Part shown: piece after piece, positions 1,739 to 8,163 of the stretch
How positions within the stretch are numbered: position 1 is the stretch's first letter
Layout: every line of letters starts with the position of its first letter
Notes under the pieces: generated by a model
What the model saw: only the letters and a program-made list of their open reading frames with translations
The model's database searches: none
What the model was told of the DNA's origin: nothing
Program-made: the position numbers and the translations under genes
Assembly (NCBI GenBank): GCA_018667995.1
Contig: JABIQT010001101.1
Coordinates: 1 to 8,945 of the forward strand
Source of the DNA: Candidatus Latescibacterota bacterium
Lineage (GTDB): Bacteria > JAAXHH01 > JABIQT01
Direction: 5' to 3'
DNA length: 8,945 bases

Positions 1739-2919
1739 CTACTTGCGTCTGGCTGCCTCTCGCCCGTAGCCCTGTTTCAGTTCTGGACGCCACTGAAATC
1801 TATGGGCCCACACATTTTCCTTCTGCTCCACAACATCGGCGATTATTGGTCCCAGTACGGGAGCGAATTTGAATCCGTGGCCACTACCGCCCGTGGCCAC
1901 CGTTAATCCAGGCCGGTTTGGATCGTTGTCTATCCAGAAGTGGCCGTCGGCGGTGTCGGCGTACAGGCATAGTCTGGTGTACACGATTTCATCCTGAGCC
2001 AGCGAGGGAAACGATTGATCCAAAAATGCGCGAAGATTGTCATGGTCTTCGGCCGTAACCCGCCGATCGCCCAAAGGATCTGTGCGAACCCCCGCCCCAT
2101 GGCATGCGCTCTTAACGATGCCATCCTGGTGTAGTGGGAAACCATAGTAACCGGTATTGGCGATATCTGCTGTGAACACGGGAAAACTCTCGGCGGCAAA
2201 CAGATTTGGACTGGATGGCTTCAGATGAAAGACCGGCTGTCCATTGGGGACAATGGAATGAGTGAGTGCCGGCAGTGTGCCGCTGGCCCAAGCACCTGTT
2301 TCCATCACCACATGATCGGCGGAGAATATGCGGCCGCTCTGATCCACAACACCTTCTACCTCGCCGTGCTTTTCAATCAGTCGGGACACCGTGTTCGCAC
2401 GATAGAACTGTACGCCATTCTTCTCGGCTTGACGGACAAGGGCCTCGATCACCGGGCCACTTTCTGCATATCCTCCTCTGGCATGGAAGAACCCGTCCTG
2501 GTACACTTCCGAATTCCATGCCGGGAAACGACGGGCAATGGAGCCGCTATCCAACCTCTCTGGACGCTGGTCTCTCCTCAGGAGGAACTGGCAGCTCTCG
2601 TACTCAAAGTCGCCCGGTTGCATCTGTCCATGGCAGAGCATGACCACGCCGGTCTGATGAAATAGCTGCGGCTCACCGCGTGACGCCCACATGTCGTTCC
2701 AGTCCAGCCCTGGAGCCCCGCTTCCACCAATTTCATATACTGCCCATCCGGACCGTACTCCATTCGGATTACCTTGCTGATATCCGTACTCGCGGCCAGC
2801 GGATGCGGTACGGGACCGGAATCGAGCACGGAGACATTGTATCCGCGCCGATTCAGCTCAAGTGCTCCCGCCACACCGAAAATACTGGAGCCAACGATCA
2901 ATACATCAACTGTCGACAT
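1739..2919 (-). pseudogene. FAD-dependent amine oxidase (MSOX/SoxA/DadA-like), frameshifted by a 5-bp duplication
   Basis: Two overlapping minus-strand pieces make one gene: codons from ATG 2919 (frame closes at 2578) and a second frame closing at 1739 (its first ATG is at 2692). The break is at 2698-2707, where CTGGA occurs twice in tandem. Deleting one copy joins ...LQGW to NDMW... and gives 391 aa, the usual family length. The N-terminal part has the dinucleotide-binding strand VLIVGSSIFGVAGAL with an acidic residue in SVLD. Repaired numbering puts Arg52 (KVIRMEYG), Lys268 (GIVKS), Cys316 (LCLYADTADGHF) and Lys349 (GHGFKF) at or within a few residues of Arg52, Lys265, Cys315 and Lys348 of monomeric sarcosine oxidase, so covalent FAD and carboxylate binding appear preserved. 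The expected reaction is oxidation of an N-methyl or secondary amino acid with release of H2O2. First gene of the minus-strand operon. As given it cannot make the full enzyme. The lesion may be a real recent mutation, a slippage switch or an assembly error. Confidence 0.85.
2698..2707 (-). repeat. 5-bp tandem duplication (CTGGA x2) causing the frameshift
   Basis: On the plus strand TCCAG is followed directly by a second TCCAG; on the coding strand this is CTGGACTGGA. Excising either copy turns ggc-tgg-act-gga-acg into ggc-tgg-aac-gac-atg (G-W-N-D-M) and restores one continuous reading frame through the oxidase. A 5-nt duplication is a classic slipped-strand product. Confidence 0.8.
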
Positions 2920-3026: not shown

Positions 3027-3033
3027 AGAGGAG
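3027..3033 (+). promoter_or_regulatory. Ribosome binding site choosing ATG 3039 for the desaturase
   Basis: AGAGGAG at 3027-3033 lies 5 nt before ATG 3039. The in-frame GTG at 3033 overlaps this site and the TTG at 3036 is only 2 nt from it, so ATG 3039 is the favoured start. Confidence 0.7.
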
Positions 3034-3038
3034 TGTTG

Positions 3039-3998
3039 ATGAACAAGTCGGGCAAGATAAAAGCCTCTGATTTCGTCCCTCAGACACGCCTGGGTGAGCT
3101 ATTAGCTAAGAAAGACGGACCGGGAATTCTCTATCTGCTAGGGCATCTGTCAGTGCTGGCCATCACGGGATTTCTGCTCCATCTGTCTCTCGATACTGGA
3201 TGGATTATACCGGCGGTGGTCCTTCACGGAACAGTTATTGTGCATCTCTTCGCGCCGTTTCATGAAGCTAATCACTATACTGCATTTTCCAGCCAATGGC
3301 TGAACAAATCGGTCGCGTGGTTTACAGGTCTGTCGATCTTTCTGATTCCCCTGTATTTCCGGTACGAACATATAGCGCACCATAACCATACGCAGATGCA
3401 GAAAGAAGACCCTGAGATGATTCCAATGGCAGAGCGACTGACGGGTTATCTCTACTACACCACAGCCATTCCCTACTTCTATAGTAACCTTTTGACCTTG
3501 GCCCGTGTGCCATTTCGACTCTACAACAGCATGGAGCTAAAATTCATCCCAAATCGTGAACTTGACCATGTATGGCGGCAGGCATGCATCATGTGTATGG
3601 TCTACATTGGACTGGCGGCACTGTCCGTGGCACTGGAAACGTGGATGCTGGTGGTCTATTGGCTTATTCCTCGCTTTGCCGGGGAACCGATTATGCGACT
3701 GATTCGCATGACCGAACACACGGGTTGTCCTCGTGTAGCCGATATCCTACGAAATACACGCACAGTGCTCACATTCGCGCCTGTTCGATGGTTGGGATGG
3801 AATAATGCCTATCACGCAGAGCATCATGCTGTTCCCACGGTGCCCTTTCACGCGTTGGGCGAACTACACCAGACCATGGGATCTCAGTTTGCGGAAATCC
3901 GGAAAGGCTACCTACATACCCAGATCCATCTTATCAAGAATTCAGCGCTGTCGGATGATAAGAAGAATTTGGAAAATGAAGCAGTAATCGCTCAGTAG
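3039..3998 (+). CDS. Fatty acid desaturase family membrane di-iron enzyme
   Basis: A 319-aa integral membrane protein with the three histidine boxes of the desaturase/hydroxylase superfamily: H75-EAN-H79, H111-IA-HH115 (followed by H117) and H259-AE-HH263, with an extra E226-H227 before the third box. Hydrophobic segments lie at about 30-50, 56-73, 92-107, 140-156 and 180-210, so the boxes face the cytoplasm as expected. The conserved tail pattern NTRT...NAYHAEHHAVPTVPF is characteristic of this family. The enzyme should use O2 and electrons from a separate donor to desaturate or hydroxylate an aliphatic chain. Some relatives act on lipids, and one (RtxC, rhizobitoxine biosynthesis) acts on an amino-acid derivative, so the substrate cannot be read from the sequence. 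It has its own promoter and precedes the PqqD-M50-cNMP gene by 137 nt on the same strand, with no clear terminator between them; co-transcription is likely. Confidence 0.9.
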   Translation: MNKSGKIKASDFVPQTRLGELLAKKDGPGILYLLGHLSVLAITGFLLHLSLDTGWIIPAVVLHGTVIVHLFAPFHEANHYTAFSSQWLNKSVAWFTGLSIFLIPLYFRYEHIAHHNHTQMQKEDPEMIPMAERLTGYLYYTTAIPYFYSNLLTLARVPFRLYNSMELKFIPNRELDHVWRQACIMCMVYIGLAALSVALETWMLVVYWLIPRFAGEPIMRLIRMTEHTGCPRVADILRNTRTVLTFAPVRWLGWNNAYHAEHHAVPTVPFHALGELHQTMGSQFAEIRKGYLHTQIHLIKNSALSDDKKNLENEAVIAQ

Positions 3999-4015
3999 GC
4001 GCGGCCTTCCTGCAT

Positions 4016-4120
4016 ATGCACACTGAACCTGTTCTCAGGTATCGGGCACCCGTTGCATTCGGTCAGATGGTGTTCAGTGTACCCTCTAAAGTCAAGCGAA
4101 TAATCACCGCCGCCGGATGA
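4016..4120 (+). CDS. Possible 34-aa small ORF (hypothetical)
   Basis: An ATG at 4016 opens a 34-codon frame (starts MHTEPVLRYRAP, ends RIITAAG) that stops 15 nt before the start of the PqqD-M50-cNMP gene, on the same strand. It has no convincing ribosome site and no recognised motif. An open frame this short is expected by chance fairly often. It is listed only because it sits directly ahead of a protein with a peptide-recognition-like domain and a peptidase core, the position where a precursor or leader peptide could lie. Confidence 0.2.
   Translation: MHTEPVLRYRAPVAFGQMVFSVPSKVKRIITAAG
4020..4080 (+). repeat. Inverted repeat in the leader between desaturase and protease genes
   Basis: ACACTGAAC (4020-4028) and its exact reverse complement GTTCAGTGT (4072-4080) are 43 nt apart. 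A smaller hairpin, ACCTG/CAGGT with a 4-nt loop (4027-4040), overlaps the left arm, so alternative foldings are possible. No T-run follows, so it is not a standard intrinsic terminator. It may be a structured leader or a protein-binding site, or chance. Confidence 0.4.
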
Positions 4121-4135
4121 TCTGAGAAGGTCCCT

Positions 4136-7100
4136 ATGGATATCTGGGCATCGATCGACGCGGGCCTCAATGAGCCAGCGGAAACTCCCTCCATACACGA
4201 TATACTCTCGGACACATATGATTTGTCACGTTACTATCCGCGTAGGATTGGTGCGGTAAGCGTGGCTCACTTTACCCGATCTGGCGGCCAGGATTACCAT
4301 GTCCTCAAAAACACGGCTCAGCGGGGATACGTTCGACTCGACGAATCCGGATATTTTCTCTGGCAGTTAATGGACGGTACCCGAAGCGTCAAGGATCTGA
4401 TGGTCGCTTATTTCGAGGCGTTCAAACGCCTTGATCGGGACGGAGTCATTGGACTAATACGTCGGCTCCAGCGTGAGGGGATGTTGGTGGGCAACCAACA
4501 TGACGCATACAAACTAATTGGCAGCCAATTGCGGACGGATGATCTTCTGAGTCGTCTGCAACAGTTCCGTGCTATTCTATTCCGAAAGAGTGTGACAGTA
4601 AGTGGGCTTGATAGGCCTGTTACAGAATCCTACAGACATGTGGTGAGATATCTGTTCAGTATGCCGTTCCTCGTGGTATATCCCCTTATTCTACTAGTCG
4701 GCCTTTACTGCTTCGGGGCTCTGCTGCAATCCGGCCAATACAGCCTATATAACGTAGCGAATTCTGCTGGTCTCGGCCTGGTAGTCCTGCTGGTCGTCAA
4801 TGCCACGATGGTCACCATTCATGAAGCTGGACATGCTTATGCTTTAAAGCACTATGGACTTGATGTTCCGGCAGGAGGGCTCGTATTCTATCTTGGGCTG
4901 CCGTGTTTTTTCGTGGACGCGACGGACGCATGGATGGCGCCGAGGCGACAGCGCATTATGGTCGCCCTTGCTGGACCGTACAGTACCGCCTTGATCTCCT
5001 CTTTGCTGGCTCTGATGTTGATTCTGGTCCCCGATCTACCGGCTTCCGGTATAATGTTTAAATTGGCCCTCTGGGGGTACATCTCGGCATGCATCAATCT
5101 ATATCCATTGCTGGAGTTTGACGGATATTACGTGCTGGTGGATCTCCTGGACGTTCCCATGTTACGGAGAAAGTCCTTTCAGTTCCTGAGGCACCGCCTG
5201 CCCGATCTCGCTACGGGGAAAAGTATTGCGTCAGCCCGTGAGTGGTTGCTTGGAGGATATGGACTGCTGGCCTTTCTCAGCACTGGGGCCTTGCTGATCT
5301 TATCGCTCTTCGTAGTAAAGTGGCGTATAGATCGGATTTCTGGGGCATTTGACGGCAGCGGTTCGCTGCTGTCCGGTTCGCTTACAGTAGCTATCGCTGT
5401 GTTTCTGGCGGTTCCCGTGGTGCTGGCCGTATTGGGCCTTCTTGTCTGGAGTGGAGCCAGGATTCTCAGGTTAATCAAATCGTCCGGAATAACGACGAAT
5501 GTGTTCCTCGTCACTGCTATCGGTATATCAGGCGTTATATTCTTCAGCTTGGCGGTCGGTCTGCTGATTCCTGATGACGCTCAGTTTACTGCCTGGGAAA
5601 CTGGACGTCTGGGAGGAGGCTTACTGACCGCCATATTTGCGTTTTGGGCGCGGCGTCTTTGTGTCGGAAGTCGCAAAGCAACTCTGATGTTCGTGTTGAT
5701 CCTGGCAGGCATTGCGACTACGCTTGTCTCAGGTGTGCATCTTATCAATGACGGAGAGTCAGATTCTGCAATTGATACGGCAGCGGGTACTATGGGCCTG
5801 GTCGGTTTGGTGGTCTATTTGCGCCTCCGCTATTTCAATGGCTTACCCAATGGTGCGTCTTCAGTTTCCTGGCTTACCATAGGATTCGGATTGCTGGCGG
5901 CTACTGTCAGTGGGCTCATCCAAACTGAGGATTCCACCGCTCTGTTGCTCCTAAGCCGAACAGCCTGGCTTATCTGTGCGCTTGGGCTCGGTGGTCTCAT
6001 CCTTTCCCATAAAACGGTGGAATTCCGCCGGCCTGAAACCGATATGTCGCTGGAAATGCGTGACCAGGAGTATCTTTGGCGCGTCCTGACCTATTATGTG
6101 TCCGGACTCGACATAAACCTTGGCTTGCTGGAAGGGGATAAATGCCGTGGCCGCGTGGCCAGAGCCTTGGCTCAGGCATCGGAAACCGCCGATCTACATT
6201 TTGTCTTCCATGCTGGCAGCCTCGTGGAAGACCAGCCGCCTGATGGCATTCACGACGCGGCTGGCCGATACAGAACGGCCCTCGGTGTTGCTATGGATCT
6301 CTACCAGAGGGAATTCGGCCACAGTCATTGGCGTAGACTGTCAGTTTTTCTCTACGATCGTCTGTCGTGGCAGCAACGCGAGCTCCTGGATGAGCACCTC
6401 CTATACGGATCGAGGCTGGATCCGGATCCGGATCCAGAATTGCGTGGTCAGGTTCTTGATCTGGTCCGCTCCACCTCCCTATTTGGGGATCTGCCCGAGC
6501 AGGCTATTCGTCAACTCTCGAAGGCTTTCAAGACTGTTTACATGGCGGCGGGCGATACGATCGTCTCAGAAGGTGAGTCGGGAGATAGGTTCTTTCTGAT
6601 CCAAGCGGGGATTGCGTTGGTGACGAAACGCGCGGCGTACGAGGATGCCGTGGTGGGACATCTTTTCCCCGGTGATTATTTCGGAGAGCTGGCGCTCTTG
6701 TACGATGCGCCCAGGAATGCGACTATCCGATGCACCACGGACATGACAGTGCTGGAATTGCCGCAGGCCGCTTTTGACCACCTATTGCGTCACTCCCTGA
6801 CGGCAGTAGCGGGCATCGAGATTGGAATTGAAATGATCCAGTTCCTTCGGCCAATTCCCCTGTTTTCGTCATTTGGCCCGCAGAAACTCTCCGAGCTTTT
6901 CAGACTTTTGCATTCCATGATCTATGAGGAAGGATCGATCATTGTGACTAAAGGTGAAACTGGCGACCGATTCTATCTTGTCAAGTCGGGTGAAGTAGCC
7001 GTATTAAGTGAGGCAGAGGAAGAAGCTGAGCACATGGCCATTCTTGGTCCAGGTGAATACTTTGGAGAGATTGGACTGCTGCGGGATATGCCAAGGACCG

Positions 7101-7246
7101 CGACAATACGCGCGGCTTCAAACGTGGAATTGATGGTTTTGGAGAGACGCGATTTTGAAAAACTGGTGTCCACCCACGAAGCGGCCACCAAGTATCTCAA
7201 CGTGGTGGCCGGTCGCAGGTTGCATCGACTACAATCCTCTAACTGA
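4136..7246 (+). CDS. PqqD-like / M50 (site-2-type) membrane metallopeptidase with two cyclic-nucleotide-binding domains
   Basis: A 1036-aa multidomain membrane protein, started at ATG 4136 with GAGAAGG 5 nt upstream. Residues about 40-120 look PqqD-like (YVRLDESGYFLWQLMDGTRS, ending with LQREGMLVG), the fold that binds RiPP leader peptides. Residues about 170-395 form an M50 core: zinc motif H229-E-A-G-H233 within a membrane helix and the third ligand in LLEFD329G. Further hydrophobic segments run to about 623, roughly twelve in all. Residues about 640-775 are soluble and unassigned, ending in a DPDPDP linker. Two cNMP-binding domains follow, at about 782-890 and 908-1015. Both keep the phosphate-binding cassette: FGE (849-851) with PRNA (R860), and FGE (976-978) with PRTA (R987). 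The likely role is cleavage of a membrane or peptide substrate under control of a cyclic nucleotide; this is inferred from domains. Catalytic residues look intact. It lies downstream of the desaturase and overlaps the isomerase gene tail-to-tail by 8 bp. Confidence 0.9.
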   Translation: MDIWASIDAGLNEPAETPSIHDILSDTYDLSRYYPRRIGAVSVAHFTRSGGQDYHVLKNTAQRGYVRLDESGYFLWQLMDGTRSVKDLMVAYFEAFKRLDRDGVIGLIRRLQREGMLVGNQHDAYKLIGSQLRTDDLLSRLQQFRAILFRKSVTVSGLDRPVTESYRHVVRYLFSMPFLVVYPLILLVGLYCFGALLQSGQYSLYNVANSAGLGLVVLLVVNATMVTIHEAGHAYALKHYGLDVPAGGLVFYLGLPCFFVDATDAWMAPRRQRIMVALAGPYSTALISSLLALMLILVPDLPASGIMFKLALWGYISACINLYPLLEFDGYYVLVDLLDVPMLRRKSFQFLRHRLPDLATGKSIASAREWLLGGYGLLAFLSTGALLILSLFVVKWRIDRISGAFDGSGSLLSGSLTVAIAVFLAVPVVLAVLGLLVWSGARILRLIKSSGITTNVFLVTAIGISGVIFFSLAVGLLIPDDAQFTAWETGRLGGGLLTAIFAFWARRLCVGSRKATLMFVLILAGIATTLVSGVHLINDGESDSAIDTAAGTMGLVGLVVYLRLRYFNGLPNGASSVSWLTIGFGLLAATVSGLIQTEDSTALLLLSRTAWLICALGLGGLILSHKTVEFRRPETDMSLEMRDQEYLWRVLTYYVSGLDINLGLLEGDKCRGRVARALAQASETADLHFVFHAGSLVEDQPPDGIHDAAGRYRTALGVAMDLYQREFGHSHWRRLSVFLYDRLSWQQRELLDEHLLYGSRLDPDPDPELRGQVLDLVRSTSLFGDLPEQAIRQLSKAFKTVYMAAGDTIVSEGESGDRFFLIQAGIALVTKRAAYEDAVVGHLFPGDYFGELALLYDAPRNATIRCTTDMTVLELPQAAFDHLLRHSLTAVAGIEIGIEMIQFLRPIPLFSSFGPQKLSELFRLLHSMIYEEGSIIVTKGETGDRFYLVKSGEVAVLSEAEEEAEHMAILGPGEYFGEIGLLRDMPRTATIRAASNVELMVLERRDFEKLVSTHEAATKYLNVVAGRRLHRLQSSN
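6418..6435 (+). repeat. Three perfect GGATCC tandem units encoding a DPDPDP linker
   Basis: Three contiguous 6-bp GGATCC units lie inside the protease gene and encode Asp-Pro repeats (residues 762-767) just before the first cNMP-binding domain. Because the unit is a multiple of 3, changes in copy number would alter linker length without a frameshift. Confidence 0.75.
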
Positions 7247-8111
7247 TCAGATTCTTCAGGTACGCCACATCTCGTTTCAGAATCCCCTGTCGCTCATTCT
7301 CCGGGAATCTACCAAGCGACTCATCCTCAATACAGATATCGCCCTGGTAACCGGCGTTTTTCAAGAAGCCTACAACACGGGAGTGGTCAATATCACCGTC
7401 TGGAATAGGACAACCATATTCGCCGTACTTCCAACCTATTTCACGTTGCTTGGCGCGTTCCGCTTCAGGGTAATTGATGTTCTTGACGTGAGTGTGCTTT
7501 GCCCTGGGTGCGAAATGCTCCAGAATCTCGTAGACCTGGTCGAGGGGATAGCCGTACCAGTAGAAGTTCCCCGTGTCCAGGGTCATACCGAGTCGCGGGG
7601 AGTCCACGCCGTCCAGCACGGCATCGAGGAATTCCCTCTCGTTTCCACGCGCTCCATGATTTTCAATTCCAAGGGGAACTCCAGTTTCAGCCGTCTCCTC
7701 AAGAAGCCATTTAATTCCCCGAGTAAAGCGGTCTACTCTTGCGTCAAGGTCCATATTCTCCTGATCTCTCATGGCGGAATCGATACGCACTGCTTTAATC
7801 CCCAATTCACTGGCGGCTTTGACCGCCTGCACACACCACGAGACCTCGCCGCTGAGATCCGAGACGTTGAAGTTATTAGCCAGCAGCAGTGCAGACACGT
7901 GGATATTGTGTTCGGCAAGATGGTTCCGGAACTGTTCCCTGGAACCCTCATCGGACAATTGGAAGGAGGCGCCGGGCAAGGTCAAGGCTCGAACCGAGCA
8001 TTGGCGACTGAAATCCATTTCCGTGGCAGACAGCCCAAGATCGGTGAGGCCTTCCAGAATAGTGCGGTAACCTGCATTAAGCACCATGGCATCTCGGATA
8101 GAGGCGTACAT
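7239..8111 (-). CDS. Sugar phosphate isomerase/epimerase-like TIM barrel (xylose isomerase/AP endonuclease 2 family)
   Basis: A 290-aa protein when started at ATG 8111-8109. An AAAGGA site 6 nt upstream supports this start over a TTG at 8147 that has no good ribosome site and adds 12 residues. The N-terminus (MYASIRDAMV...LTDLGLSATEMDF) is the usual first barrel strand and helix. The metal-binding set of the family is present: E150 (GIENHG), D179 (TLDTGNFY), H206/H208 (KHTHVKN) and E262 (CIEDESLG), on successive strands. Size matches the family (about 270-300 aa). Members interconvert ketoses or act on inositol and related compounds using a divalent metal, in the cytoplasm; the exact substrate is not visible. 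The gene has its own probable promoter and is divergent from the carbonic anhydrase. Its 3' end overlaps the protease gene by 8 bp. It may act with the minus-strand catabolic genes at the left, though it is not in the same operon. Confidence 0.88.
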   Translation of the reverse strand: MYASIRDAMVLNAGYRTILEGLTDLGLSATEMDFSRQCSVRALTLPGASFQLSDEGSREQFRNHLAEHNIHVSALLLANNFNVSDLSGEVSWCVQAVKAASELGIKAVRIDSAMRDQENMDLDARVDRFTRGIKWLLEETAETGVPLGIENHGARGNEREFLDAVLDGVDSPRLGMTLDTGNFYWYGYPLDQVYEILEHFAPRAKHTHVKNINYPEAERAKQREIGWKYGEYGCPIPDGDIDHSRVVGFLKNAGYQGDICIEDESLGRFPENERQGILKRDVAYLKNLIS

Positions 8112-8117
8112 GTGTGG

Positions 8118-8123
8118 TCCTTT
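8118..8123 (-). promoter_or_regulatory. Ribosome binding site choosing ATG 8111 for the isomerase
   Basis: On the minus strand AAAGGA is followed by 6 nt (CCACAC) and ATG. The upstream in-frame TTG at 8147 lacks a comparable site, so the shorter 290-aa product is favoured. Confidence 0.6.
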
Positions 8124-8163
8124 CGAAAAGACGAATTTGTCAGACAACCCAAGAATCGGTGCG

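Follow-up and report, generated by a model that had tools for sequence, protein, structure and literature searches.

Leader peptidases that join an RRE to an M50 core have a characterised precedent in MpaP of the daptide system (PMC10036551), and processing by M50 enzymes is further exemplified by EpeP, TglG and TmoG (PMC10885120). For Os1348 of Pseudomonas, the neighbours reported are an acetyltransferase, a SagB-type dehydrogenase and a peptidase of gluzincin-like type rather than an M50-cNMP protein (PMC7726476, PMC2887384). In the literature that we searched, which took in few subscription papers, we found no published description of an RRE-M50-cNMP architecture, nor any of a RiPP leader peptidase controlled by cyclic nucleotides. 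A protein of this architecture is nevertheless encoded in the window, by which we mean the whole stretch of DNA analysed here (8945 nucleotides). The window is an entire small contig of a fragmented, 85 % complete assembly of 6.06 Mb.

The protease gene and its surroundings

The protease gene is a complete ORF of 1036 aa at positions 4136–7246 on the plus strand, which begins with ATG, has AGAAGG a short distance 5′ of this start, and contains no internal stop. Its features, with the evidence for each, are as follows.

4136–7246, plus strand: gene for an RRE-M50-cNMP-cNMP membrane protease (complete ORF; Pfam and NCBIfam)
4241–4513, plus strand: PqqD/RRE domain, residues 36–126 (PF05402; AlphaFold model; best PDB matches are RREs)
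4664–6001, plus strand: membrane region, residues 177–622, comprising the M50 core and then extra transmembrane segments (hydropathy segments 179–622; NF041824 match up to residue 419)
4820–4834, plus strand: HEAGH zinc-binding/catalytic motif, residues 229–233 (sequence; conservation in 41 relatives)
5108–5125, plus strand: LLEFDG motif, including the third zinc ligand D329 (sequence; D329 conservation in 41 relatives)
6053–6415, plus strand: soluble linker domain, kind not assigned, residues about 640–760 (secondary structure; pLDDT roughly 54–73 in the full-length model)
6461–6835, plus strand: first cNMP-binding domain, residues 776–900, with cassette residues E851 and R860 (PF00027; phosphate-binding cassette)
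6845–7219, plus strand: second cNMP-binding domain, residues 904–1028, with cassette residues E978 and R987 (PF00027; phosphate-binding cassette)

Upstream, 138 bp 5′ of the protease and on the same strand, lies a gene for a desaturase-type (fatty acid) membrane enzyme (3033–3998, plus strand) with a weak match to the guanitoxin hydroxylase GntB. The original prediction had pointed out this neighbour; as no homologue of this desaturase was present near any relative of the protease that we examined, we have rejected a link between the two. Further upstream, a gene for a FAD-dependent oxidoreductase (DAO; 1739–2919, minus strand) is broken into overlapping frames (2578–2919 and 1739–2692), which suggests a frameshift through mutation or assembly error.

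An RRE-type fold precedes an intact zinc site

A Pfam search placed PF05402 (PqqD) at residues 55–117 with 28.3 bits, above the gathering score of 23.4. An AlphaFold model of residues 1–137, built from a three-sequence alignment (mean pLDDT 67, about 80 over residues 41–80), has three strands followed by three helices, and the top three Foldseek hits of this model in the PDB were all leader-bound TbiB1. When ranked with VIA-align, TbiB1 (Z 8.4), a leader-bound lasso-peptide B1, TigE and CteB came ahead of ordinary winged-helix regulators, with Z scores of 7.8–8.4 for the first three and 6.8–8.4 once the CteB RRE is included. In contrast to this fold search, a PDB sequence search with the N-terminal profile returned no RRE. 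The N-terminus of the protease is, as modelled, an RRE-type (leader-recognition) fold, in agreement with the earlier suggestion of a leader-recognition-like N-terminus and of a PqqD fold at residues 40–120.

The zinc protease core likewise proved to be as described. Hydrophobic segments flank both HEAGH and D329, the latter set within PLLEFDG, and the predicted zinc site (H229, E230, H233 and D329) is intact. Because D329 is invariant and the other three residues are nearly so across 41 relatives, chance resemblance can be dismissed. The protein is a single polypeptide with a PqqD/RRE domain, an M50 site, a multi-transmembrane region and two cNMP domains. The best NCBIfam match was NF041824 (RRE-M50) over residues 53–419 (E-value 6 × 10−42; 144.2 bits against a cut-off of 300). 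Three Pfam families had been named as a check on the architecture; PF05402 and PF00027 matched, whilst PF02163 gave no match to the window protein at E ≤ 1, although 38 of the 41 relatives match it at E ≤ 0.01. Pfam detected no PDZ or CBS domain in the protease and no family in the linker at residues about 640–760. The full-length AlphaFold model, also from three sequences, has a mean pLDDT of 44.5, and its M50 core is without confident geometry. Amongst the relatives, an Actinomycetota protein (L010, 9788–10934) carries HEAGR in place of HEAGH and is possibly a catalytically dead protease.

Distribution and architecture of relatives

Using a profile built from four rows of the RRE-M50 part, we found relatives in 52 of 400 Chloroflexota genomes (about 13 %), in 25 of 396 from Actinomycetota (6 %) and in three of 16 from the phylum of the window, one of these three having only the HlyD type described below. 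The viral contigs searched held no relatives, and a plasmid search gave only partial matches, mostly to HlyD-type or daptide proteases or to cNMP proteins. Most of the closer relatives have one or two cNMP domains C-terminal to the M50 core. In L144, L147, L148, L149 and L200, however, the cNMP domains stand N-terminal to the RRE-M50 part, so that the two parts have been joined in both orders.

In a tree of the M50 part, the window protease groups with that of L011, from the same order (support 99/99), whilst 26 long proteins form a large clade (C1124) that is split off with full support. In addition, two loci from the order of the window, L014 and L015, encode M50 proteases with an HlyD-like C-terminus, which adjoin a Ser/Thr-kinase-like ORF and an apparent beta-propeller sensor ORF. 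At seven Actinomycetota loci (L175, L177, L179, L180, L181, L185 and L186) the end of a gene for a protein of about 150–270 aa, mostly signal-bearing, coincides with the start of the protease gene or overlaps it slightly.

Leader proteins and a zinc-ribbon-like protein adjoin the relatives

The neighbourhoods of relatives, which the original prediction had proposed to survey for short conserved peptides and desaturases, yielded leader-type proteins and, near the relatives examined, no homologue of the desaturase. Three components recur together: the protease, a zinc-ribbon-like protein and a leader protein. Proteins with a leader domain of the Os1348/NHLP clan adjoin the protease in 20 of the 29 Chloroflexota loci outside C1124, and the leader domain is N-terminal in them (NF038399; PF14407 in L009). 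As our own leader profile was seeded from these same protease loci, we took the curated model NF038399 as an independent test; it scored above its cut-off within a few kb of the protease at 14 loci. Given that the 400 genomes contain about 120 NF038399 hits in all, and no single genome more than seven, this linkage is far beyond chance. For the leader protein beside the full-length relative L009, the score was 78.6 bits (cut-off 40). By comparison, a strong Os1348 hit was present in 37 of the 52 protease-containing genomes and in three of the 348 others (Fisher test), but such co-occurrence is confounded by shared ancestry and we therefore prefer physical adjacency as evidence.

Many leader domains terminate in a recurrent R(M/L)SK motif, in many cases with glycines behind it, and a tail comes next. 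These tails are either repetitive (ARNT in L059; ALNSAE in L053) or long and of low complexity, reaching 1171 residues in L145, such that some candidate precursors, in contrast to ordinary RiPPs, have tails of hundreds of residues. At L145 (G062, C20:15000–34900) the RRE-M50 gene is flanked by five large, low-complexity ORFs of 343–1386 aa with Os1348/NHLP-like domains, unusually large for leader-bearing proteins, which lie as follows:

3999–8159: leader-bearing ORF
11562–12593: leader-bearing ORF
12615–15683: leader-bearing ORF
15343–17949: leader-bearing ORF
17702–19901: leader-bearing ORF

The zinc-ribbon-like protein, of about 70 aa, is found near the protease at 38 loci, usually a few dozen bases away. 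It carries the motifs CxxC, FCGRxxC and CGVC/CGAC and matches no Pfam family above cut-off. In L011, the closest relative, its ORF overlaps the stop codon of the protease. Neither the window nor its 85 % complete genome yielded a zinc-ribbon-like partner, an Os1348/NHLP leader protein or any other precursor; as the assembly is also fragmented, a precursor may be missing from it or be too divergent. A genome of the same order (G015) has kept the zinc-ribbon-like protein and gave no Os1348 hit.

The proteases of clade C1124 share no common functional neighbour directly beside them, and a genome-wide search located their leader-type peptide at a separate locus. There, a 72-aa Os1348 peptide adjoins a cyclase-AAA-TPR protein (class III cyclase) in all 12 loci read, within about 0.1 kb in 11 of them and at 0.5 kb in one. 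This peptide is strongly conserved in the Chloroflexota loci L131–L142, with a C-terminal end of approximately LDPRLSKSAGRGF. These genomes thus offer a second, independent connection between a leader-type peptide and cyclic-nucleotide signalling.

Tandem cNMP domains and links to cyclic nucleotides

PF00027 identified two domains in the protease (E-value 1 × 10−43; 147.5 bits against 27.5), and both predicted phosphate-binding cassettes are intact: FGELALLYDAPRNA (residues 849–862) and FGEIGLLRDMPRTA (residues 976–989). This bears out the claim of two cNMP domains that each keep their cassette. The Arg of both cassettes is present in the window protein, in L009 and in nearly every relative outside C1124, and the retention of Arg and Glu in the window protein, in L009 and in almost all cassette-bearing loci suggests, as judged from sequence conservation, selection for binding. 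In C1124, by contrast, the phosphate-binding Arg is missing or unaligned in nearly all first cNMP domains and gone from every second one (PR to PP or similar), whilst the domains themselves persist. The clade has a cyclase-linked leader peptide, yet a protease that looks unable to bind ligand.

Of the 46 non-C1124 loci, six have a class III cyclase at a distance of up to 5.5 kb (2.1 expected; P about 0.02) and four have one no more than 1 kb away (0.55 expected; P about 0.002), both comparisons being post hoc; this enrichment is modest and the genomes concerned are rich in cyclases. At L009 the protease shares a single stretch with an NHLP protein, a cyclase and an M16 peptidase, although the M16 peptidase is absent beside other relatives. 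The genome of the window codes for four class III cyclases. It also encodes a second tandem cNMP protein of 476 aa (L211, 6950–8380; G000 C227). Elsewhere, a CRP-like protein of about 240 aa with a single cNMP domain recurs in L174–L181 past the zinc-ribbon-like gene, mostly 0.6–0.9 kb beyond the protease.

Overall, the proposed cyclic-nucleotide gating of the window protease is plausible from its sequence, in that both Arg residues are kept and cyclases are modestly enriched near relatives. Nevertheless, as the Arg is lost throughout the sister clade C1124, gating cannot hold for every member of the family.

Proposed function and alternatives

We consider there to be slightly better than an even chance that the window protein is an RRE-guided intramembrane zinc leader peptidase tied to cyclic-nucleotide signalling. 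In the mechanism we propose, the cytoplasmic PqqD/RRE domain would capture a ribosomally synthesised precursor by its leader domain, and the M50 core would cut this precursor in or at the membrane, possibly also assisting its export, as has been proposed for EpeP; the tandem C-terminal cNMP domains may then modulate cleavage in response to a cyclic-nucleotide signal. We infer all three of cleavage, its substrate in the window organism and switching by cyclic nucleotide. RiPP-type processing is well supported by the RRE-type fold and by the gene neighbourhoods of relatives. Since related bacteria carry the gene beside peptide precursors, the window protease itself probably trims such precursors, perhaps under the control of cAMP or cGMP. 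The earlier idea of a regulated RiPP-processing protease is supported in part, by the RRE fold and by the relatives beside Os1348/NHLP proteins, but not from the window and its genome, where no precursor was found.

An RRE-guided leader peptidase could also be imagined in which the cNMP domains are folded scaffolds or docking modules with no role in sensing cyclic nucleotides. The persistence of these domains in the 26-member sister clade after loss of the Arg, as well as the weakness of the cyclase enrichment around loci that keep it, would be in keeping with this. We regard it as rather unlikely, however, given that Arg and Glu are retained in both domains of the window protein, of L009 and of almost all cassette-bearing loci, that cNMP domains are also fused ahead of RRE-M50 in L144, L147, L148 and L149, and that the sister clade has a class III cyclase near its leader-type peptide gene.

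Other explanations depart from leader processing in the window organism altogether. M50 proteases often have signalling roles, and with a desaturase gene 138 bp 5′ on the same strand, the protein might be a site-2 protease that frees a membrane-tethered regulator, perhaps linked to lipid state, with the PqqD-like fold as a protein-binding wing. Against this stand the lack of a desaturase near any relative, the absence of PDZ and CBS domains from the protease by Pfam, the closer likeness of the N-terminus to leader-binding RREs than to other winged helices, and the RiPP-type leader proteins that adjoin relatives; we judge it very unlikely. Alternatively, the gene could be a relic or have been re-purposed in the lineage of the window, its gene cassette having decayed so that a leader-bearing substrate is no longer met. 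The partner genes missing from the genome, and an order-mate that retains the zinc-ribbon-like protein but likewise lacks an Os1348 hit, point in this direction, whilst the gene itself has kept an intact reading frame, zinc site, RRE and pair of cNMP cassettes, and the assembly that lacks the partner genes is fragmented and 85 % complete, the window being a small whole contig of it. Such decay seems to us distinctly unlikely.

Returning to the leader peptidase tied to cyclic-nucleotide signalling, a bolder form of it can be put forward only tentatively: cAMP or cGMP made by a class III cyclase and sensed by the tandem cNMP domains would switch RRE-M50 cleavage of NHLP-leader proteins at the membrane, including those whose long tails, repetitive or of low complexity, extend to ∼1000 residues. 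If so, leader domains would serve as general targeting tags for membrane processing, beyond their use in small RiPPs. Recurring as it does in Chloroflexota, Actinomycetota and the phylum of the window, a leader-guided protease with intact cNMP cassettes would turn peptide maturation into something switchable, and the architecture offers a marker for unusual precursors.

Comparison with known systems

Amongst the RiPP systems with leader proteins of the Os1348/NHLP clan (NF038399, PF14407; PMC7726476, PMC2887384), the likeness lies in the neighbours of relatives, whereas no such protein was found in the genome of the window. The bacteriocin-type transport-associated cNMP protein family TIGR03896, whose name links cNMP domains to bacteriocin transport, matches the C-terminus of the protease with 56.9 bits against a cut-off of 161, and does so only over the cNMP domains. 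The RRE-M50-HlyD proteins of L014 and L015 have a related M50 core but fall on a separate branch of the tree, and from reading their sequence end in an HlyD/lipoyl-type arm where the window protease has cNMP domains. The epipeptide proteases EpeP/YydH/LiaK (NF058609; PMC10885120) are RiPP-maturing M50 enzymes with a weak match at residues 169–340 (43.8 bits; cut-off 225), in a model of 246 positions that has no cNMP domains. No daptide genes, be they modification genes or Thr-ending precursors, were present among the ORFs of the window. MpaP/DapP (NF041824; PMC10036551), however, shares with the window protease an N-terminal RRE followed by an M50 intramembrane core, and differs from it in that its model of 379 positions includes neither the extra transmembrane block nor the cNMP domains. 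The window protein is thus a variant within the known RRE-M50 peptidases such as MpaP.
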